Positions 8,785 through 47,591 of a stretch of DNA of 64,000 nucleotides are shown piece by piece. The DNA lies in assembly GCF_024227715.1 (NCBI RefSeq), contig NZ_CP100448.1:1364001-1428000 (forward strand), written 5' to 3'. Made by a program: the position numbers and the translations under genes. The notes beneath the pieces were generated by a model. It ran no database searches. It had not been told where the DNA came from and saw nothing but the letters and a program-made list of their open reading frames with translations. Every line of letters starts with the position of its first letter. The stretch's first letter is position 1. This DNA is from Halomarina litorea (lineage in GTDB: Archaea > Halobacteriota > Halobacteria > Halobacteriales > Haloarculaceae).

Positions 8785-9779
8785 TTCGATTCGACGACGT
8801 CCACAAACGGTACAGCGACGGCACGCACGCGGTGAAGGGCCTCGACTTCACGGTCGAGGAGGGGACGACGACGGTGCTGGTCGGCCCCTCCGGGTGCGGC
8901 AAGACGACGACGATGCGACTCGTCAACCGCCTCGAGGAACCCACCGAGGGGACCGTCCACTACGACGGCACGGACGTGCGTGACCTCGACGCGACGACGC
9001 TCCGCCGGGACATCGGGTACGTCATCCAGGACATCGGCCTGTTCGACCACATGACCGTCGCGGAGAACGTCGCCACCGTCCCGGACCTGAAGGGCTGGGA
9101 CCGCGAGCGCATCGACGACAGGGTGGACGAACTGCTCGAACTGGTCGACCTGCCCCCCGGAAAGTACCGCGACAGCCACCCGACGGAACTCTCCGGCGGG
9201 CAACGCCAGCGAGTCGGCGTGGCCCGCGCACTCGCGGCCGACCCGGACGTCCTCCTGATGGACGAACCGTTCGGCGCGCTCGACCCCATCACGCGCGAGG
9301 AACTGCAAGACGAGTTCCTCGCCATCCAGCGTGACATCGAGACGACCATCCTCTTCGTCACCCACAGCATCGACGAGGCGCTGAAGATGGGCGACCGCAT
9401 CGCCGTGATGAACGGCGGCGAACTCGTCCAGTACGACACCCCGCGCGCCCTGCTGGACGACCCCGCGACGAAGTTCGTCGAGGACTTCGTCGGTCCCGAC
9501 CGGACGCTCAAACGCCTGCGCGTCCTCCGCGTCGGCGAGGTGATGACCGAGCAGGTGCCCGACGAACACGAGGACGTCGTCGAGGCGTTCCGTGCCGACC
9601 GAGGGGTCGTCGCCGACGGGGGCGAGGTGATTCCGGTCACGCCCGACGACAGCGCACAGGTCGCCCTCTCTCGGTGCATCCAGGCGAACGTCGACGCCCT
9701 GCCCGTCGTCGAGGAGGCGTCGGTGGTCGGCGTCGTCACCGAGTCCGCCATCCGGGAGTGGCAGCGGGGCGGTGTCTGA
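8781..9779 (+). CDS. Osmoprotectant-type ABC ATPase with CBS region
   Basis: A 332-residue ATPase of the OpuCA/ProV group. The Walker A motif is GPSGCGKTT, the signature LSGGQRQRVGVARAL, Walker B DVLLMDEPFGALDP and the switch His is in FVTHSIDEA. After about residue 240 comes an extension with CBS-like halves (GEVMTEQVPD and VDALPVVEEASVVGVVT). In OpuA-type systems CBS modules sense ionic strength and gate transport, so osmotic control is plausible here, but the first half is short. The start overlaps the permease stop and its own stop overlaps the next start (TGATG). Confidence 0.92.
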   Translation: MIRFDDVHKRYSDGTHAVKGLDFTVEEGTTTVLVGPSGCGKTTTMRLVNRLEEPTEGTVHYDGTDVRDLDATTLRRDIGYVIQDIGLFDHMTVAENVATVPDLKGWDRERIDDRVDELLELVDLPPGKYRDSHPTELSGGQRQRVGVARALAADPDVLLMDEPFGALDPITREELQDEFLAIQRDIETTILFVTHSIDEALKMGDRIAVMNGGELVQYDTPRALLDDPATKFVEDFVGPDRTLKRLRVLRVGEVMTEQVPDEHEDVVEAFRADRGVVADGGEVIPVTPDDSAQVALSRCIQANVDALPVVEEASVVGVVTESAIREWQRGGV

Positions 9780-22863: not shown

Positions 22864-22885
22864 CTCCGAACCGCGCTAGTCCTCG
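22864..22885. repeat. 22-bp direct repeat, copy 1
   Basis: Identical to 22940-22961, which covers the stop codon and last codons of the DR2241 gene. The copies are 76 bases apart. This looks like a small local duplication of a gene end. Confidence 0.65.
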
Positions 22886-22939: not shown

Positions 22940-22961
22940 CTCCGAACCGCGCTAGTCCTCG
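22940..22961. repeat. 22-bp direct repeat, copy 2
   Basis: Second copy, spanning the stop codon of the DR2241 gene (stop at 22952-22954). The same pattern, larger, occurs at 38911-39145. Confidence 0.65.
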
Positions 22962-24019
22962 GTCTTCACCCCACACAGGTTCCCGTCCTCGTCGAAGCGC
23001 TTCGCACGCAGGAAGCGCGTCCGGTAGCGGTTCGCCCCCTCGTAGACGTCCGCCTCCCGAATCTCGTCGGTCCGGCCGTCCGCGACGGCGTCGATGATGT
23101 CCTCTACCTGCTCTTTCTCGCTCGGCGTGAGTTCGAAGGAGTACTCGCGGGCCTCCTCGCGTTCGAGCGTGGTCCACTTGCGCGCGGCGGCGACGACCAG
23201 CGAACACGGTTCGCGGCAGGGGAACTCGCTGTCCCCTCGGGGCGCGTCGAGTTCGTGGTCCTCGTTCAGGTCCCACTGGCGGCGCTTGAGACACTGCGAG
23301 TCGACACAGCAGGTCTGGGCGACCCACTCGACGGCCTCGGGGTGGAGTTCGTCGATGATGTCGTAGATGCCCGTCTGGCGCTCTGCGGTCTCCTGCCAGT
23401 GGGTCACGTCCAGTTCACCCTCGCGCTCGCGGTGCCAGTTGGCGACCGTCGCAGGGTAGAAGAAGTCCACCGCTCGGACGAGTTCGGCCCCGGAGAGGTC
23501 CGGGAACACCCATCCCGACCGGAGCGAAGGGGCGGTCTTCAGCGGGCGGTAGCGCCCGTCCTCGTCCTCCGTGGCGAGGTGGCGGGCGTCGAGAGGGTCG
23601 CGGTGCGCGTCGAGGGCCGTCGGGTCGTGGTCCGCGTCGTCCTCGTGGCGCAGGTCGTAGGTGCGGCCGTCGTCCTCGTCCAGCGAGACGGTGACGAGCA
23701 GTTCGCCCCACGTCCGCTCGATACCCTCGTGGAGCGCCTCGTATCGCTCGGGCACGGGGTGCTCGTCGGCCATCTCGGCCCACCGGAGGAACGCCCGGCG
23801 GTCGGCGGTCCGTTCGGGGACCGACCAGACGTACCAGTTGGAGACGTACTCGTGGTTCGCGGCGGCGGCCTCGCGGAACGCCTCGGCCGAGAGGTCCTCG
23901 TGGCGCTCCTCGGGCGTCTCGAAGACGTAGGCGTCGCCGTCGAACGAGACGTGCAGGCCGTCGAGTGCCACGCCGTCGGCGGCCGCCTCGCGCAGCGCCT
24001 CGATGTGGGTCGCGCTCAT
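22952..24019 (-). CDS. DR2241 family Cys-rich protein
   Basis: A 355-residue protein of the DR2241 family, known in Deinococcus and halophiles and often next to CbiX. The first 190 residues look like an alpha/beta domain. Residues 225-280 carry five Cys: TCCVDSQC (Cys237, 238, 243) and FPCREPC (Cys268, 272), enough for an iron-sulfur cluster, which is how I read it. A YxxG-like C-terminal domain is suggested by ELTPSEKEQVEDIID. The CbiX gene lies two genes upstream, supporting a role in tetrapyrrole metabolism. No activity is proven. The ATG at 24019 gives the family N-terminus. Confidence 0.8.
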   Translation of the reverse strand: MSATHIEALREAAADGVALDGLHVSFDGDAYVFETPEERHEDLSAEAFREAAAANHEYVSNWYVWSVPERTADRRAFLRWAEMADEHPVPERYEALHEGIERTWGELLVTVSLDEDDGRTYDLRHEDDADHDPTALDAHRDPLDARHLATEDEDGRYRPLKTAPSLRSGWVFPDLSGAELVRAVDFFYPATVANWHREREGELDVTHWQETAERQTGIYDIIDELHPEAVEWVAQTCCVDSQCLKRRQWDLNEDHELDAPRGDSEFPCREPCSLVVAAARKWTTLEREEAREYSFELTPSEKEQVEDIIDAVADGRTDEIREADVYEGANRYRTRFLRAKRFDEDGNLCGVKTED

Positions 24020-24264
24020 AGTCCACTCGTGGGGCGGACGGGGGTAAAGTCGGTCGCTTCGGGCGAATCGACACGAGTTGACGACGAGGTTATTAGTCCG
24101 AGTTCGTAACCGTCGTCCATGGTCCCCGAACGAGGTGTGCGGTAGTGGAGTGGCGGACCGACCGCCGAGCGACGGCACGTGCCGGGACGGCCGTCGTCGT
24201 CACCGGTGGGGGCCGGATACGGGCGTACGAACTCTGAGCCGCCTGATTTCGGAGCGGTCCGGGG

Positions 24265-35930: not shown

Positions 35931-36131
35931 TCAGGGGACGGCGACGCCCTGCCGGGTGAGCCACTCGCTCGCGCCCTTGATCTCGACGGGACTGCCGATG
36001 ATCCGGGTGGTGTCGGCACGCTCGACGAACGAGAGGACGAACTCCCGATCGAGGTCCGCCTTGAGTCCCTCGAGGCTTCCGCGTGGGAGGACGATCTGCG
36101 TGCTGTCGCGGAACCGTCCGGCGTCGCTCAT
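35931..36131 (-). CDS. VNG_1110C family small protein
   Basis: A 66-residue protein I recognise as the haloarchaeal VNG_1110C type, usually found next to L11. It has an alpha/beta pattern with FRDSTQIVLPRGSLEGLKAD and ADTTRIIGSPVEIKGASEWL. Function unknown. The TATA-like TTAATACG centred near 36159 predicts a start near 36133, so the ATG at 36131 is preferred to a GTG seven codons earlier. The last residues are QGVAVP. Confidence 0.75.
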   Translation of the reverse strand: MSDAGRFRDSTQIVLPRGSLEGLKADLDREFVLSFVERADTTRIIGSPVEIKGASEWLTRQGVAVP

Positions 36132-36212
36132 CGTCTGTTCGTCCACGGGCACCCCGTATTAACATGTTGAAGTCCCGGCGCTCGGGCGGCGAACGTCGAT
36201 GATTCGGAACGC

Positions 36213-36374
36213 TCAGAGGTTGACGACGACCAGTCCGACCAGCGCGAGGATGGCCACCGCCCCGCCGACCGTCGCGAGTCCCGTCTCGAAGACGAAACTG
36301 AGCGCGGTGTGGGCGAGCGCGACGAACGCGAGGCCGACGAGCAGGAGGTTGTACCCGAGTCGCCGTTTGTCCAT
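36213..36374 (-). CDS. 53-residue two-helix membrane protein
   Basis: A short protein: DKRRLGYN then hydrophobic stretches at residues 9-29 and 32-52, ending in VVVNL. Positive residues sit at the N-terminus, suggesting it faces the cytoplasm. Similar tiny proteins are common in halophiles. No function is known. It is divergent from the GTPase gene and 81 bases ahead of the VNG_1110C gene on the same strand. Confidence 0.65.
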   Translation of the reverse strand: MDKRRLGYNLLLVGLAFVALAHTALSFVFETGLATVGGAVAILALVGLVVVNL

Positions 36375-36501
36375 ATCCCGGATTGGGGACAGCGGCGTAA
36401 AGCGGTGACCGTCGCGGCGAGCCACACGGCGGAGACGGGTCACCCCGCCCCGACAGGGCGGAAGGACACGCTTTTGCCCGACGGTGGCGGACCGTGGAGT
36501 A

Positions 36502-37611
36502 ATGGGACTTGAGGAGGAGATCGAGGCCATCGAGGAGGAGATAGCCAACACTCCCTACAACAAGTCCACCGAGGCGCACATCGGTCGGCTGAAGTCGAAA
36601 CTCGCCCAGAAGAAAGAGAAACTGGAGAACCAGTCCTCGGCGGGCGGCGGACAGGGCTACGCCGTCGAGAAGACCGGCGACGCCACCGTCGCCCTCGTCG
36701 GGTTCCCCTCCGTGGGCAAGTCGACGCTCCTGAACGCGCTCACCAACGCCGAGAGCGAGGTGGGCGAGTACGAGTTCACGACGCTGAACGTCAACCCCGG
36801 AATGCTCCAGTACAACGGGGCGAACATCCAGCTACTCGACGTCCCCGGCCTCATCGAGGGCGCGGCCGTCGGGCGCGGGGGCGGGCGGGAGGTGCTCTCC
36901 GTGGTGCGGACCGCCGACCTCGTCCTGTTCGTCCTCTCGGTGTTCGACATCGACCACTACGACCAGTTGCAGAAGGAACTGTACTACAACAAGATTCGAC
37001 TGGACACCTCCCCCGCCAGCGTCAGCGTCTCGAAGAAACACAAAGGAGGCATCAAACTCACCACCAGCGGCGACGTGGGCCTCGACGACGACACCATCAA
37101 GAGCGTCCTGCGCGAGTACGACTACATCAACGCGGACGTCACCGTCCGCGAGGAACTCGACATCGACCGCCTCGTGGACGCCCTCATGGACAACCGCGTC
37201 TACCTCCCCTCCATCGTCGCGGTGAACAAGGCCGACCTCATCGACGAGGACTACCTCCAGACCGTCTACGAGCAGTTGCGCGAGCGCGACATCGACCCCG
37301 AGGAGGCCGTCTTCATCAGTGCGGAAGAGCAGAAGGGGCTGGAGAGCCTCAAGGAGTCCATCTGGGAGGCGCTCGGCCTCATGCGCATCTACATGGACAA
37401 GCCCGGACGCGGGGTGGACTACGAGGAACCGCTCGTCCTCGAACGCGGGTCCACCATCGAGGGCGCCTGCGAGAAACTCGGCGGGGACTTCAAGGAGCGG
37501 TTCCGCTTCGCGCGCGTCTCCGGCCCCAGCGCGAAACACGACGAACAGCAGGTCGGGATGGAACACGAACTCGCCGACGAGGACGTCCTCCGACTGACCG
37601 TCACTCGATGA
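36502..37611 (+). CDS. DRG-type GTP-binding protein
   Basis: A 369-residue GTPase of the OBG/DRG group. An N-terminal helical part (LEEEIEAIEEEIANTPYNK) precedes the G domain: P-loop GFPSVGKSTLLN, switch 2 LLDVPGLIEGA, and NKADLIDE. An inserted domain lies between G3 and G4. The C-terminal TGS domain is near residue 295 onward. DRG proteins interact with translating ribosomes. A CTTTTGCC element about 27 bases ahead of the ATG suggests leaderless transcription. Its stop overlaps the next start (ATGA). Confidence 0.92.
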   Translation: MGLEEEIEAIEEEIANTPYNKSTEAHIGRLKSKLAQKKEKLENQSSAGGGQGYAVEKTGDATVALVGFPSVGKSTLLNALTNAESEVGEYEFTTLNVNPGMLQYNGANIQLLDVPGLIEGAAVGRGGGREVLSVVRTADLVLFVLSVFDIDHYDQLQKELYYNKIRLDTSPASVSVSKKHKGGIKLTTSGDVGLDDDTIKSVLREYDYINADVTVREELDIDRLVDALMDNRVYLPSIVAVNKADLIDEDYLQTVYEQLRERDIDPEEAVFISAEEQKGLESLKESIWEALGLMRIYMDKPGRGVDYEEPLVLERGSTIEGACEKLGGDFKERFRFARVSGPSAKHDEQQVGMEHELADEDVLRLTVTR

Positions 37612-38096
37612 GTACGGGATCGGACGAGGAGTCCCCGTTCTGGTCGCCCGGCTTCGACCCGCGCGCCGCCCGACGCCTCCTCTTGCTCGTCGCCCTGGCG
37701 TTCGTCCCGTGGACGGTCATCCTCGGACCGGACCTGACGCTCGTCTTCCCGTTCGGCCTCGTCAACGACAACCCGTGGTTCCTCGTCCGCGTCGACGACT
37801 ACCTCCGGCTCTCGTCGTACGGCCGCTTCGCCTTCATCGACGCGTGGCTCATCGGGGCAGGCCTGTACGCCGTCGCCCTCCTGAGCGCGCTCGGCGGGGT
37901 GGCCGGCGTCGAGGACCGACGGCTCACGGGCGGATTGCTCGTGTTCGCGGGGGTGAGCCAGTTCCCCCTCGCGCTGGGGTTCTCCCGGCGGACGGGCTAC
38001 GTCGGCCTGCCCGTCGGGAGCCTCTTCCTCCTCGCCGCGGCATGGTGGCTCTACTGGTCAGACGTGCGTGCGTGGGTGGGCGCGCGCGTGGAGTGA
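37608..38096 (+). CDS. TIGR04206 family membrane protein
   Basis: A 162-residue protein with four hydrophobic segments, roughly residues 23-45, 77-99, 104-122 and 130-150. Family features are FVPWTVI, the FPFGLVNDNP motif and SYGRFAFIDAW. TIGR04206 proteins are confined to halophiles and have no known function. It is coupled to the GTPase gene by a 4-base overlap, so a role near the membrane for that GTPase, or merely a shared transcript, is possible. Confidence 0.82.
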   Translation: MSTGSDEESPFWSPGFDPRAARRLLLLVALAFVPWTVILGPDLTLVFPFGLVNDNPWFLVRVDDYLRLSSYGRFAFIDAWLIGAGLYAVALLSALGGVAGVEDRRLTGGLLVFAGVSQFPLALGFSRRTGYVGLPVGSLFLLAAAWWLYWSDVRAWVGARVE

Positions 38097-38197
38097 GCGA
38101 AAGAACGGCGAACAGGACGACAGGAACGAAGCCCGAACCCGGTTCGGAGGGCCGGTGCCGCCACCCTTATCGCTCGTCCGGGAGTGTAGGGGGACGT

Positions 38198-38953
38198 ATG
38201 CACGCGATTCTCGACCACGTCATGATGCGCGTGGAGGATCTGGACGCCAGCCTCGAGTGGTACACCACGCACCTCGACTACGAGGAGAAGGGCCGCTGGG
38301 AGGCCGACACCTTCACGAACGTCTTCCTCGGGCCCGAGGAGATGCACGACGAGGGGGCGCTCCTCGAACTCACGTACAACCACGACGACCGGACCTACGA
38401 GCAGGGTGACGCGTGGGGCCACATCGCCGTCCGAACCGACGACGTCTACGACGCCTACGAGGAACTGATGGACGAGGGTGTGGAGGACTACCGCGACCCC
38501 GACTCCTGTGGTGGGCGCTACGCGTTCGTGACGGACCCCGACGGCCACGAGATCGAGATCGTCCAGCGCGACCACGGTGTGGAGTGGAGCCTCGACCACA
38601 CGATGATGCGCGTCGAGGACGCCGACGCCGCCATCGGCTGGTACACCCGCAAGCTGGAGTACGACCTCTTCCGCCGCGAGGAGTTCGAGGACTTCGCGCT
38701 GTACTTCCTCAAACCCGAGGACGCCGCCGACGAAGCGATGAGCGTCGAACTCACGTACAACTACGACGGCAGCACGTACGACATCGGCGACTCGTGGGGT
38801 CACGTCGCCGTCCGGACGGACGACCTCGACGACGCGTGGGAGACGCTGATGACCCGCCACGCCGAGGACTACCGCGACCCCGAGTCCTGCGATCACAACT
38901 ACGCCTTCACGAAGACGAACGACGGCCACGAGATAGAAGTCGTCACGCGGTAG
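38198..38953 (+). CDS. Double VOC-domain protein
   Basis: A 251-residue protein with two tandem vicinal-oxygen-chelate domains, residues 1-125 and 130-251. Both start with LDHVMMRVEDLDAS or LDHTMMRVEDADAA, have a LELTYN strand with the metal-ligand Glu, and end with GHEIEIVQ or GHEIEVVTR. Each has a His at the strand-1 ligand position. This matches glyoxalase I-like proteins in which the two domains form one metal site. Substrate unresolved; methylglyoxal is the usual guess. The 3' end is duplicated downstream. Confidence 0.87.
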   Translation: MHAILDHVMMRVEDLDASLEWYTTHLDYEEKGRWEADTFTNVFLGPEEMHDEGALLELTYNHDDRTYEQGDAWGHIAVRTDDVYDAYEELMDEGVEDYRDPDSCGGRYAFVTDPDGHEIEIVQRDHGVEWSLDHTMMRVEDADAAIGWYTRKLEYDLFRREEFEDFALYFLKPEDAADEAMSVELTYNYDGSTYDIGDSWGHVAVRTDDLDDAWETLMTRHAEDYRDPESCDHNYAFTKTNDGHEIEVVTR

Positions 38954-38955
38954 TC
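38911..38955. repeat. 45-bp direct repeat, copy 1
   Basis: Covers the last 14 codons, the stop codon and two bases beyond of the VOC gene. It is identical over 45 bases to 39101-39145, 190 bases away. Immediately before the repeat the two sides are similar but not identical (gc-ttca). Confidence 0.85.
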
Positions 38956-39654
38956 GCACGAGCACTCCGCGACCGAGCGTCGCGAGGTCGCGTCCCGGCG
39001 AGCGACCACCGGGAGCGAGTCGAGGTTTTCGTCCAGGGTTTGCCAGTGAGTGAGTCGGCCGGTGGCCGGCGAGCGAGCGCAGCAAACGGTGGGCGTTCAG
39101 GAAGACGAACGACGGCCACGAGATAGAAGTCGTCACGCGGTAGTCACACTGCACGTCCGCCAAAGTCTGTATTCTCCGACACGTTCGGCGTCGAATAATC
39201 GCACCCTTCTCGTCGGCCCCGAACTGTTTCTTCCAGCCAGCACGAACGAACCGGTCGAGAGTGTTCGCAATCGGCGACAGTCCGTGCGCACGATACAGGG
39301 GTCGAGCGGCGATGATTCACGCTCGTCGACCACCGGAACCAACGCGGACGTTATCGGGAACGATAGTATATATTGGCGGGTTACTGACCATATGTCAGTC
39401 TTATGTCCGACTTGCGTCAGACACTCGTCGTGCGAACGGCCGATTGGGACACAAAGCCTATATCCGATGATTTCGGGCTTGAGAGAGCCTAACACACTAT
39501 TGAGTTCACCAGAAAGCATTTATAATGACGGCCATACCGTTTGGCTGTACCCCTACCCATGGTGACAGTACAACGTTCCCGACCTTTCGCGACCGACGTG
39601 GTCGCATCTTCGGAACCCGTGCCGTCGCCACACTGGTAGAACCAGATTCCAACC
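38954..39654 (+). promoter_or_regulatory. S-layer upstream region with several TATA-like elements
   Basis: Seven hundred bases without a gene. The first 190 hold the spacer between the 45-bp repeats. The rest is AT-richer. TATA-like elements are at 39366-39372 (TATATAT), 39457-39465 (CCTATATCC) and 39519-39526 (TTTATAAT); the last predicts a leader of about 105 bases for the S-layer gene. An inverted repeat with arms 39383-39388 and 39394-39399 sits where the first promoter would start. S-layer genes of other halophiles also have a long leader and strong promoters. Confidence 0.6.
39101..39145. repeat. 45-bp direct repeat, copy 2
   Basis: Second exact copy. The sequence that follows turns AT-richer and leads into the S-layer promoter region. 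A duplicated gene 3' end is what an integration site (attL/attR) or a copy-choice replication slip leaves behind. Confidence 0.85.
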
Positions 39655-42339
39655 ATGACAGGTACACACAACAAGATTCGTAGCCTTCTGCTGGTTACGC
39701 TGATGGTCCTCTCGGTCTTCGTAGGATCTATCGGCCTCGCTGGCGCGCAGTCTACGGGCAACGAGGAGCTGGACGACGGAGGCGTATACTTCGTCGGACA
39801 GACCCTCATCGAGAGCAGCGCAGTAAACGGTGAATCGTACTCGCTCGTCGACGGTGACGACAACTTCGTCCGCCAGTACACGGCGGATTCGAACGGCGTC
39901 ACTATCGACACCGAGAACCTCGAGACCGGCTCGTACACGCTCAGTGGCGATTCCGTGGACAGCTCGTTCACGCTCGCCGAGCAGAGCCTCAACACGGAAG
40001 TCGACGGCAACACGCTCACCGTTGACTCCAACCGCGCAGGTTACACGGTCGAAATCACGTCCGACGACCTGAGTGACACGGAGCTCAACACCCTCCTCAC
40101 CAACGAGGCGGACCCGAGCAACGTTCAGGTCTCCGGCAACTCCAAGGACATCGCGCTGGACACGTCCGGCCTCGAGGGCTCCTACGAGCTCAGCATCGAC
40201 GTCGTCGACACGTCCGCGAGCGCGAACGCGACTGTCAACGTCGGCGCTGTCTCCGGTGACAGCCTCGAGTTCGAGCAGTCCGTCTACGAGGTCATCGGCG
40301 GTGACGTCGGCCAGATCGGAGTGAACTTTGAGGGCAGTGCGACCTCGGGTGAGGTTCAGATCGGTTCCGACGACGTCAACTACAACGTCACGCTGAACGT
40401 GAAGGACGGCGCGAACGGTGACGCCGACGGTAACGTCACCATCCTGTTCAACACGTACAACACGACCAACGCTGGCGACGCCTTCAGCGCCGCCGACGAA
40501 GACGACTCCGTCAGCGTCGTCGGCTCCGAGCCGACTCTCGACGAGATCATCTCGTCCGAGGCCGCCTACGACCTGAGCGCGCGCCACGGCGGTCAGGAGA
40601 CCGACGTCGCGACCCTCGCGGTCAACGACGGTTCCATCGGCTCCTTCAGCCTTCTGACGGCACCCGAAAACAGCGATCTGGACTCCGTTAGCGAAATCGA
40701 GAACGCCTCGACGGAGCGTAACACCATCGCGCAGGGCGACGAAATCGTCCACCGTCTCGAGGCCACTGGCATCTTCGGTGCACTTCAGGGCGGTCAGCTC
40801 AGCGACTTCGCGACCATCAATGTCTCTGAGACCACGGCCGGTCCGAACGACGACCCTGTCACCGAGGAGATCGGCTCTGGCAATTACAACGTCGTCACGG
40901 ACGGTGAGGGCGTCGTCTACGTCGTCATCGACTCGGACGACCTCCCCAGCAGCATCGACACGGATCAGGAGCTCGAAGTCTCGCTCACGCTTGACGCCGA
41001 CTCCAAGCTCGTCAGCGAAGACACCGAACTCAACCAGACGTTCGAGATCGTCGACCGTACGGCCGAGTTCGACACTGAGGAAATGGACGGCGAGGACACC
41101 ATCGTTGTCCGCGCCGAGAACAACGCCTCCATCACGGGTACGACCTCGGTCGCACCCGGTTCGGAGTTCAACGTGCGCGTCCGCTCCGCGGGCGACAGCC
41201 CGTTCCTCATGACCGACGAGGTCGAGGTTCAGGAGGACGGCACCTTCGAGGCGAACTTCAACTTCTCGGGCGTCAGCTCGAACACGACGTTCGAAGCGTC
41301 CATCACGGGCGGCACGTTCGCTGAACCCCCGACTGACGTCCCTGGTGTCGTCGAGCCCGCACAGCGCGGCTCGGTGAACATCCAGGACCAGACGGTCGCC
41401 AACGGTAGCGACCAGACGGTGACCATCACGGCCGCGGTCCTCACGGACGGTGGCTTCATCACCATCCACGACAGCACGCTGCTCGACGGCGAGCTGTTCA
41501 GCTCGGTTCGCGGTACCTCGGACTACATCGAGCCCACGGGCGAGGATGCAGTCCGCAACGTCGAGATCACGCTCGACAACCCGTACAACGAGTCCGGCAC
41601 CGCCATCGCGATGCCGCACCTCGACACGAACGACAACCAGCAGTACGACTTCGTCACCTCCGAGGGTGAGGACGACGGCCCCTACACCGAGAACGGTGAG
41701 CCGTCGACCGACTCCGCGGAACTGACCCTCGAAGAGGGTAACGAGTCGGAGAACGGCTCCGCCTCCGTCACCGTCGAGGACCAGACGACGAACGGCGAGA
41801 CCGTGACCGTCGCGTCCGCCAACCTCCCCGAGGGTGGCTTCGTGACGATTCACGACAGCACGCTGCAGGACGGTGCGACCATCGAGTCCGTCCGTGGCAC
41901 GTCCGACTACCTCGAGGCCGGTGAGAACAGCGACATCAACGTGTCCCTGGACTCCGCCTTCGAGCAGGGCGAGCACACGGTCATCGCGATGCCGCACATG
42001 GACACCAACGGCAACCAGCAGTACGACTTCGTCTCCTCCGACGGCTCGGAGGACGGCCCGTACACTGACGCCGACGGTAACATCGTCACTGCCTCGGCCA
42101 CGCTGACGGTCGGCCAGGGCAACGGCACGAACGGTACGGACAACGGTACGGACAACGGCACGGACAACGGCACGGCTACGGCGACCGCCACGCCCGACTC
42201 CAACACGACCGAGACCGCTACCAGCAGTCCGACTGACGAGCCCACCACCACGTCCGGCGACGGGCCTGGCTTCGGTGTCCTCGTCGCGCTCGTCGCGCTC
42301 GTTGGCGCTGCGCTCCTCGCGGTGCGCCGCAACAACTAA
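39655..42339 (+). CDS. csg: S-layer glycoprotein with PGF-CTERM
   Basis: An 894-residue secreted glycoprotein building the cell wall. Sec signal peptide MTGTHNKIRSLLLVTLMV..., cleaved after Ala31 (AGA|Q). The mature start QSTGNEELDDGGVYFVGQ is typical of haloarchaeal surface glycoproteins. Two DUF7282-type domains at about 574-690 and 702-818 share VTIHDSTL and AMPHxDTNxNQQYDF. About twenty N-glycosylation sequons are present, including NGTDNGT repeats (about 825-840) in a Thr-rich stalk. The tail has GDGPGFGV (PGF 871-873), a membrane helix and RRNN: the signal that archaeosortase A removes and replaces with a lipid anchor. GC content is below that of its neighbours. Archaeosortase A is the next gene. 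Confidence 0.93.
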   Translation: MTGTHNKIRSLLLVTLMVLSVFVGSIGLAGAQSTGNEELDDGGVYFVGQTLIESSAVNGESYSLVDGDDNFVRQYTADSNGVTIDTENLETGSYTLSGDSVDSSFTLAEQSLNTEVDGNTLTVDSNRAGYTVEITSDDLSDTELNTLLTNEADPSNVQVSGNSKDIALDTSGLEGSYELSIDVVDTSASANATVNVGAVSGDSLEFEQSVYEVIGGDVGQIGVNFEGSATSGEVQIGSDDVNYNVTLNVKDGANGDADGNVTILFNTYNTTNAGDAFSAADEDDSVSVVGSEPTLDEIISSEAAYDLSARHGGQETDVATLAVNDGSIGSFSLLTAPENSDLDSVSEIENASTERNTIAQGDEIVHRLEATGIFGALQGGQLSDFATINVSETTAGPNDDPVTEEIGSGNYNVVTDGEGVVYVVIDSDDLPSSIDTDQELEVSLTLDADSKLVSEDTELNQTFEIVDRTAEFDTEEMDGEDTIVVRAENNASITGTTSVAPGSEFNVRVRSAGDSPFLMTDEVEVQEDGTFEANFNFSGVSSNTTFEASITGGTFAEPPTDVPGVVEPAQRGSVNIQDQTVANGSDQTVTITAAVLTDGGFITIHDSTLLDGELFSSVRGTSDYIEPTGEDAVRNVEITLDNPYNESGTAIAMPHLDTNDNQQYDFVTSEGEDDGPYTENGEPSTDSAELTLEEGNESENGSASVTVEDQTTNGETVTVASANLPEGGFVTIHDSTLQDGATIESVRGTSDYLEAGENSDINVSLDSAFEQGEHTVIAMPHMDTNGNQQYDFVSSDGSEDGPYTDADGNIVTASATLTVGQGNGTNGTDNGTDNGTDNGTATATATPDSNTTETATSSPTDEPTTTSGDGPGFGVLVALVALVGAALLAVRRNN

Positions 42340-42351
42340 GCGACGCTAACC

Positions 42352-42368
42352 ACCGGACCTCGTCCGGT
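42352..42368 (+). terminator. Hairpin behind the S-layer gene
   Basis: Perfect 7-bp stem (42352-42358 with 42362-42368) and 3-base loop 12 bases past the stop codon, followed by a T-rich stretch to about 42390. A likely transcription terminator that separates the highly expressed S-layer gene from artA. Confidence 0.65.
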
Positions 42369-42487
42369 CACTTGCGGTTTCATTTCTTCGGACGCCACGC
42401 CCCGAGCGACGGCCATCGTCCGACGCGCGAGCGGGGCGAACGGGCGTAACGGCAAGACATATACCCGCGACAGACCACCTCGAAAAC

Positions 42488-43447
42488 ATGCTCGGGACCG
42501 TACTGGGCGTGCTGGAGTGGGCACACCAGTTCTCGGACCCCCTCGCGTGGCTCGTCGTCGCGGCGTTCCTCCTCGCGGCGGCCCTCGACGTGGCCGGCCG
42601 CGACCCGGAGGCGCGCTACACGGCCGTCGCCGGGTGGGTCCTGTTCGCCGCCTTCTGGCTTTCGCTGATTCACTACTACGCCATCACCTCGAAGAGCATC
42701 GTCGAGGGAATCGGCAGTCTCGTCGCCGTCCCCGGGAGCCTCTATGCGGGCTACCTCCTCGCGCGCGGCCGCGACTCGTTGCTCGTCCTCTCGCGTGCGG
42801 TGGGCGGGATGGCGCTCGTCTTCCTCACCTTCGAGTCCATCACGCCGGTCAGGAACTTCCTTATCGAGGAGGTCACCCGCCAGACGGAGTTCGCGATGGG
42901 GCTGGTCGGCCAGACCGCCCCCGAGGACTTCCGGGTGGTCAGCGGGTCCGTCGTCGACCGCCCCGACCTCCGGAGCACGTTCCTGTTCATGGAGGGGGAC
43001 CACCGCATCACCTACACCATCCGCATCGCCTGTACGGGACTGGGGAGCATCGCCATCTTCGCGGGTGCCATCGCGGCCGTGCGCGCGCCGGTCCACCGCA
43101 AGGTGCGAGCGCTCGCCGTCTCCGTCCCCGTCATCTACGTGCTGAACATCGTCCGGAACACCTTCATCGGCCTCTCGTTCGGCCAGCAACGCCTCCAGTT
43201 GTTCCCCGGGCAGGTGATGACGATGTTCGCCTCGAACGACCCCTACATGGTGTCGTACTTCATCGCGGACCGCATCCTCGCACAGGTGCTCTCGGTCGTC
43301 GCCCTCGTCGGTATCACGTGGCTCGTGGTCCGCGAACTCCCCGAGATTACGACCATCCTCGAAGACGCCCTGTTCATGCTCACGGGCACCGAGTACGACC
43401 TGCAGGCGGCCATCGCCGGGTCGGGGTCGGGGTCGACAGAAGAGTAG
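42488..43447 (+). CDS. artA: Archaeosortase A (ArtA)
   Basis: A 319-residue membrane transpeptidase that processes PGF-CTERM proteins, with about eight helices. The catalytic Cys182 lies in IRIACTGLGSIAIF, Arg223 in NIVRNTFIGL and Arg262 in FIADRILAQV. Relative to the three catalytic residues known in Haloferax volcanii ArtA, all are shifted by the same nine positions, so the active site is intact. A TATA-like CATATACC (42459-42466) 26 bases before the ATG indicates its own leaderless promoter. Its substrates here include the S-layer protein directly upstream and the BtuF-like protein at 51740-52852. Confidence 0.95.
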   Translation: MLGTVLGVLEWAHQFSDPLAWLVVAAFLLAAALDVAGRDPEARYTAVAGWVLFAAFWLSLIHYYAITSKSIVEGIGSLVAVPGSLYAGYLLARGRDSLLVLSRAVGGMALVFLTFESITPVRNFLIEEVTRQTEFAMGLVGQTAPEDFRVVSGSVVDRPDLRSTFLFMEGDHRITYTIRIACTGLGSIAIFAGAIAAVRAPVHRKVRALAVSVPVIYVLNIVRNTFIGLSFGQQRLQLFPGQVMTMFASNDPYMVSYFIADRILAQVLSVVALVGITWLVVRELPEITTILEDALFMLTGTEYDLQAAIAGSGSGSTEE

Positions 43448-47443: not shown

Positions 47444-47591
47444 ACCCACGCCCGACGACTGGCGAAGCACGACCGACTCCTGGCACGACATCCTCGATAG
47501 GAGAACTGACGGACAGGTCCGCGACTCGTCCGCTCGGAACCGGGCGCAGACGGAGAGGGCGGCCGCTCCGGGCGCAGTTCGCGTCAGAAAG

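Follow-up and report, generated by a model that had tools for sequence, protein, structure and literature searches.

Behind the stop codon of a VOC (glyoxalase-family) gene of the archaeon Halomarina litorea lies a non-coding hairpin repeat of a kind dispersed in haloarchaeal genomes, and beyond that repeat the end of the gene occurs a second time. The repeat belongs to a family that docks at the 3′ ends of genes, the same arrangement recurs behind other genes, and at a site in Haloferax it is precisely present or absent from one genome to another. Our preferred explanation, to which we assign a probability of about 0.5, is that the repeat docks at gene 3′ ends, that behind the VOC stop the last ~68 bp of the gene would have been duplicated beyond it by template switching, and that recombination would later remove such repeats. 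The joining step by template switching is the part that we infer.

The duplicated end of the VOC gene

The window analysed here is a stretch of 64 kb of the H. litorea genome (contig NZ_CP100448.1, positions 1,364,001 to 1,428,000), in which the VOC gene, an S-layer-type gene and archaeosortase A are grouped together (38198–43447). An exact 45-bp direct repeat had been predicted from the letters of this window to copy the last codons and the stop of the VOC gene. The two stretches are indeed identical over 45 bases, copy 1 holds both the codons and the stop, and the pair is the longest exact direct repeat of the window, the runner-up having 22 bases (contig position C1:1402911-1403145; Table 1). 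The distance of 190 bases given for it is correct from start to start and does not describe the spacer, which is 145 bases long between the exact copies. Gapped alignment widens the duplication to 68 bases per side, over which the copies differ by two gaps of one base each and by a few mismatches; because these flank the exact core, the copies are not fresh and perfect at their margins. Within the VOC gene lies a further duplication (38210–38950), of two domains that are ~71–74% identical at a spacing of 381 bases. No match at gathering score was obtained in an Rfam scan of 36000–43000, and the single tRNA of the window, a tRNA-Thr at 47591, lies ~8 kb off and is unlinked to the repeat.

Table 1. 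Features of the VOC locus, in window positions.
Feature	Position	Strand	Identification and remarks
VOC (glyoxalase-family) gene, 3′ end duplicated	38198..38953	+	Pfam PF00903 (Glyoxalase) E=2e-30, two domains; NCBIfam lactoylglutathione lyase models
Duplicated gene end, copy 1; remains the coding 3′ end of the VOC gene	38903..38970	+	exact core 38911-38955
Hairpin repeat separating the copies	38971..39092	+	core stem-loop 39038-39087; right end GGTGG 39088-39092; related copies interspersed in own genome and in relatives
Copy 2 of the gene-end duplication; non-coding here, reads AFRKTNDGHEIEVVTR*	39093..39160	+	exact core 39101-39145
S-layer-type glycoprotein gene, downstream context only	39655..42339	+	NF041335, NF045517, TIGR04126 matches

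Copy 2 is followed by an intergenic region, the S-layer-type gene and then archaeosortase A. The S-layer-type gene scores above the cut-offs of the surface-domain model NF045517 and the PGF-CTERM model TIGR04126, and its match to the full-length S-layer model NF041335 falls below the curated cut-off. A composition change had been placed at this edge. GC is in fact lower here (0.52–0.57 around 39150–39750), and the stretch corresponds to the intergenic and leader region of the S-layer gene and to no foreign block. A foreign origin of the S-layer region was rejected, the leader motif being present at 15 of the 30 VOC loci of the order (own locus counted).

Relatives of the locus were retrieved with a VOC query that matched 56 of 59 genomes, from which 30 loci were given, own included. 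Gene-end duplication is missing from 27 of the 29 other loci, among them those of all 6 same-genus relatives represented (of seven). One genome of the same family and another genus (L049, in G019) has a VOC-end duplication whose spacer ends in GGAAAAAGGTGG, with copy 2 within a few bases; L055 has an 18-base tandem copy of the VOC end and no hairpin. As to whether relatives hold the same two copies around the same spacer, none of the six same-genus genomes does, and the hairpin spacer of the other-genus genome is related to ours, not identical.

A hairpin repeat family at gene 3′ ends

The sequence between the two copies had been called unrelated, and this does not hold: the spacer is a member of an interspersed repeat family. 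A genome-wide search with 38850–39200, of the kind proposed for the 45-bp repeat, brought out relatives of the spacer at C1:177519 (80% over 85 bases) and C1:1571491. When the spacer served as the query, matches at E≤0.001 came from 29 of 59 genomes, a count that includes matches to the query's VOC gene ends. A motif scan that covered the window, two own loci and the 40 regions retrieved first gave 41 cores. A relaxed pattern finds 3 copies in the own genome, a slightly stricter one occurs in 6 of the 8 same-genus genomes, and a very strict one in just 8 of 195 genomes of the order, which means that the exact form of the repeat varies by genus. A pattern scan of named genomes returned at least 117 stretches, many of them from unrelated bacteria and probably due to chance; among the matches listed are Halarchaeum, Halococcus, Halorussus, Haladaptatus, Halolamina, Halobacterium and Haloferax.

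The core of the repeat folds as TTTTGC...GCAAAA with a variable inner stem. Against mononucleotide shuffles, the core folds (n=145) have a median z of -2.75, with 86% below -1.5, and the core at the VOC locus has a z of -3.0. The consensus fold of 51 aligned repeats is weak, and we therefore claim no structure conserved by covariation. The ends of the repeat, CCGCGAGCG... and ...GGTGG, were compared by eye. The right end is sharp, identity stopping just past GGTGG in 4 of 4 paralogous pairs from two related genomes. It also lies 0–5 nt from the stop codon of a convergent open frame for 53 of 146 repeats, compared with 38 of 2920 random points, a count that rests on heuristic gene calls. Some repeats come in arrays: L151, L108, L091 and L096 combine repeats with other modules and are not gene ends, and at the same-genus loci L093, L095, L098, L101, L102, L104, L108 and L151 hairpin arrays alternate with an inverted-repeat module, GGCGTGCAGGCGACGCC...GGCGTGGCGTCGC.

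The sharp right end, the docking at stop codons and a duplication that brackets the insert where a clean single-end site also exists (in Haloferax, below) all speak for transposition, with the hairpin as a non-autonomous mobile element for which some hypothetical enzyme would make long, variable target-site duplications near stop codons. We regard this as unlikely. DDE transposases make short target duplications of fixed length, such as are looked for in MITEs, and the lengths duplicated here (~27 to 81 bp) are unlike them; the Y1 transposase family (RAYT, PF01797), found in 2 of the 8 same-genus genomes, is absent from the own genome (G000) and from the repeat-rich G003; and the best within-genome pairs of repeats are only ~78–89% alike, bar one pair beside an assembly gap. 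Movement driven by a RAYT was rejected because the own genome has no Y1 transposase. The near-identical pair L389/L397 (G136) was rejected as a case of recent copying, since both hold N at an imperfectly repeated stretch, probably through scaffolding.

The REP/BIME sequences of bacteria are short, non-coding, dispersed hairpins that lie mostly between convergent genes or behind stop codons and are sometimes arrayed. The haloarchaeal repeat resembles them as a short non-coding hairpin, dispersed at gene 3′ ends behind stop codons and sometimes in arrays; it differs in being archaeal, in its flanking gene-end duplications and in the absence of RAYT/Y1 from the own genome and G003. It is also like the PATEs, SMRs and MITEs of Haloquadratum in being a transposase-free haloarchaeal repeat. 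For those elements, excerpts of the published account describe repeat-mediated deletion as a mechanism of loss, with PATEs and SMRs causing no target duplications and MITEs carrying transposon-related inverted repeats (PMC3119063); unlike them, the hairpin repeat has gene-end duplications of 27–81 bp and a right end that abuts stop codons. The absence of target duplication in PATEs, which derive from IS605, contrasts with gene-end duplications at seven sites here. Hairpins and T-stretches behind genes are likewise described for the 3′-end terminators of Haloferax, a likeness that does not imply termination by the repeat, and the excerpts of that paper describe neither a repeat family nor gene-end duplication (PMC7237163). 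Short haloarchaeal repeats and repeat-mediated deletion are thus already known in kind, and in open-licence papers we found no description of this hairpin repeat or of gene-end duplications with it.

Duplicated gene ends with and without the repeat

The layout of gene, repeat and second gene end was found at seven sites, behind six kinds of gene in four genera. We collected 153 distinct repeats in 253 sequences and tested 151 for a duplicate across the core, eight of the 151 being one orthologous Haloferax site. The protein genes concerned are those of VOC (window), citrate synthase (L004), thiolase (L119), a heme-binding protein with chlorite dismutase and ABM domains (Haloferax, 8 genomes, counted once) and Elp3 (L364), and in all five the duplication starts a few bases past the right end of the repeat. 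The citrate synthase case also sits in the own genome, where 2 of the 3 repeat copies have a duplicated gene end. Two further duplicated ends, of the VOC gene in L049 and of a Rad3-like helicase gene in L457, accompany a diverged hairpin that ends in AAAAAGGTGG. The duplicated ends range from ~27 to 81 bp. At L314 (1504–1790), several fragments of a tRNA-Ile 3′ end flank the hairpin repeat on both sides, as if repeatedly duplicated.

Classically, attL and attR are recognised by the duplication of a gene's 3′ end, and tRNA 3′ ends, too, are duplicated beside the repeat (tRNA-Arg in L179, tRNA-Ile in L314). The original prediction had seen in the VOC repeat the possible attachment sites of an integrative element, since lost or reduced. 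We hold this to be highly improbable: the spacer is a dispersed repeat, no one target gene is shared by all occurrences (seven sites, six kinds of gene), and a PF00589 search of the own genome found its nearest tyrosine-integrase match ~121 kb off, at C1:1524748-1525317, with none within 120 kb, in line with the earlier remark that no integrase was in view. No single integrase could duplicate the own end of a different gene in each case, so that an integrase attachment site is unsupported. What survives of the prediction is a duplicated gene end that brackets an insert, with an analogous presence and absence in Haloferax; a scar of a larger lost element it is not, the insert, a hairpin repeat of ~120 bp, being still in place.

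A slip during replication, offered as the other origin, gives an incomplete account, since wherever the hairpin is present copy 2 begins a few bases past its right end. In a fuller form, the gene end and its flank would have undergone tandem duplication or slippage with the hairpin present beforehand, the second repeat being lost later. Short tandem gene ends without a hairpin do occur (L055; L457 near 11265), and L151 retains two tandem units of 77 bp plus repeat, both repeats intact, which also fits tandem duplication. A separate later loss of the downstream repeat would nevertheless be required at each of the seven sites, and we judge such a history very unlikely.

How often gene ends are duplicated at all was gauged from controls. 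Among 296 gene ends of longer loci, four matches scored at least 15 (the VOC case, the Haloferax case, an acidic low-complexity tail and a hairpin), and none was a true gene-end duplication without the repeat; for 1198 random points, the best 6 matches listed lay at repeats, at the citrate synthase site or at the internal domain duplication of the VOC gene. An unbiased sample of six genomes comprised 1425 gene 3′ ends (733 + 692) and 1307 gene 5′ ends (679 + 628). The 3′ ends gave seven raw matches, from which a CRISPR-like array and the mirror of another match were set aside. The five remaining are the VOC case, a 22-bp duplication in the window, L439, a 26-bp direct tandem repeat at a gene end without hairpin (L457 near 11265) and the Rad3-like helicase end with its diverged hairpin (L457 near 15422). 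Five raw matches at 5′ ends consist of two tRNA-like ones (by eye), a CRISPR-like one, one in the L439 region and a 22-bp gene-start duplication (L473). Duplication is somewhat more frequent at 3′ than at 5′ ends, in numbers too small for a firm claim.

Gene-end duplication is thus rare and, as the cases without the hairpin in the unbiased sample show, not confined to it. The 22-bp pair of the window (22864–22885 and 22940–22961, 54-base spacer) lies without such a hairpin behind a DR2241-domain gene on the minus strand (22955–24199). In L439 (G000:C1:770001-790000, reverse strand near 9152–9240), the end of the aspartate--tRNA ligase gene is repeated ~50 bases downstream without a hairpin, and the copies have six codon differences, all synonymous, TAG for TAA among them. 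A CRISPR-like array in L455 (G019:C1:300001-320000, 788–2790) has ~30-bp repeats, GCTTCAACCCCACAAGGGTTCGTCTGGAAC. Some observations qualify our preferred explanation. Only five independent protein-gene cases accompany 151 repeats, so the family either does not regularly produce the duplication or soon loses it by decay; and the window pair, L439, L457 near 11265 and L055, all without the hairpin, show that gene ends duplicate by other routes too.

Divergence, loss and a possible origin

The heme-binding gene of Haloferax reveals both states of one site. In the 15 genomes of this genus (that of L239), 8 are carriers, with gene, repeat and second end, and the other 7 show one gene end and no repeat; in one of the latter, G069, the two parts of the query share 38 overlapping bases, which marks a single end as clean. 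In a tree of the 1.3 kb upstream, G069 falls inside the carriers as sister to G060 and G061, from which it follows that the repeat and one copy can vanish precisely, and its state is best explained by a deletion in which the two ends recombined. The same tree places the carrier G066 among single-end genomes, so that for the polarity of the site many losses, transfer or two gains are possible. In the alignment, read by eye, two codons covary in copies 1 and 2 within genomes, as conversion would give; gene conversion in the polyploid Haloferax volcanii is the topic of PMC8223754 and PMC11276520.

For eight gene ends aligned in frame, one of them (L439) without hairpin, 23 codons differ synonymously and 5 nonsynonymously between the copies (12 to 3 plus 11 to 2, stop-for-stop changes counted as synonymous). 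Random single changes would be synonymous in 23.5% of cases, which gives p=1e-10 against non-coding drift and p=0.009 against a half-and-half mixture of coding and non-coding drift, both values being approximate because multi-change codons were counted once. The synonymous excess implies that for most of their history both ends either acted as coding alleles or were renewed from such an allele, and suggests gene conversion or the joining of two alleles. A gene end recoded synonymously, with the old end left downstream, is what prophage e14 has produced at icd in E. coli. The cases described here share the recoded end and the displaced old one, and differ in that there is no prophage or integrase, the insert is ~50–150 bp and many different genes are involved.

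Copies that differ almost only synonymously (23 to 5), with stop-for-stop changes, would also be left by allele capture, in which incoming DNA of another strain replaced the gene end together with the 3′ flank, an illegitimate join placing it upstream of the resident end, which was left as a displaced fossil, the hairpin being the donor's flank. The AGC/TCG serine codons that differ between the Elp3 copies of L364 and the same pattern without a hairpin in L439 are in its favour. Capture alone, however, does not account for a join at the right end of the hairpin, the 45-bp core shows no difference between the window copies, and the covariation within Haloferax genomes, seen by eye, points to gene conversion; we find capture quite unlikely.

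According to our preferred explanation by template switching, replication or recombination would run through the end of the gene on one chromosome copy or on an incoming allele and through a hairpin repeat, the template would be left at the right end of the hairpin, and copying would resume some 25–80 bp further back in the same gene. Gene conversion would afterwards keep both gene ends alike, and recombination between them would delete the repeat together with one copy, restoring a clean gene end. A switch at the hairpin end that resumes upstream would account for the order seen, for lengths that vary and for a right junction that is fixed. Only tentatively, and with more doubt than belief, do we extend this to a general proposal: a widespread, previously undescribed haloarchaeal hairpin family that docks at stop codons might spread without a transposase, its right end serving as the exit for template switching, so that its placement could duplicate a gene end, or recode it from another allele, and recombination between the ends could erase the repeat cleanly.

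The arrangement looks like a recurrent way in which salt-loving archaea pick up and shed small repeats, and not like the scar of a lost virus. For annotators it is a warning that such gene-end repeats need not signal a lost virus or integrative element. If our explanation is true, it shows how small repeats can be added without damage behind core genes such as those of citrate synthase and Elp3 and how haloarchaeal intergenic regions grow and shrink, and in polyploid archaea past gene conversion or joining of alleles could be read from the synonymous divergence of the two gene ends.
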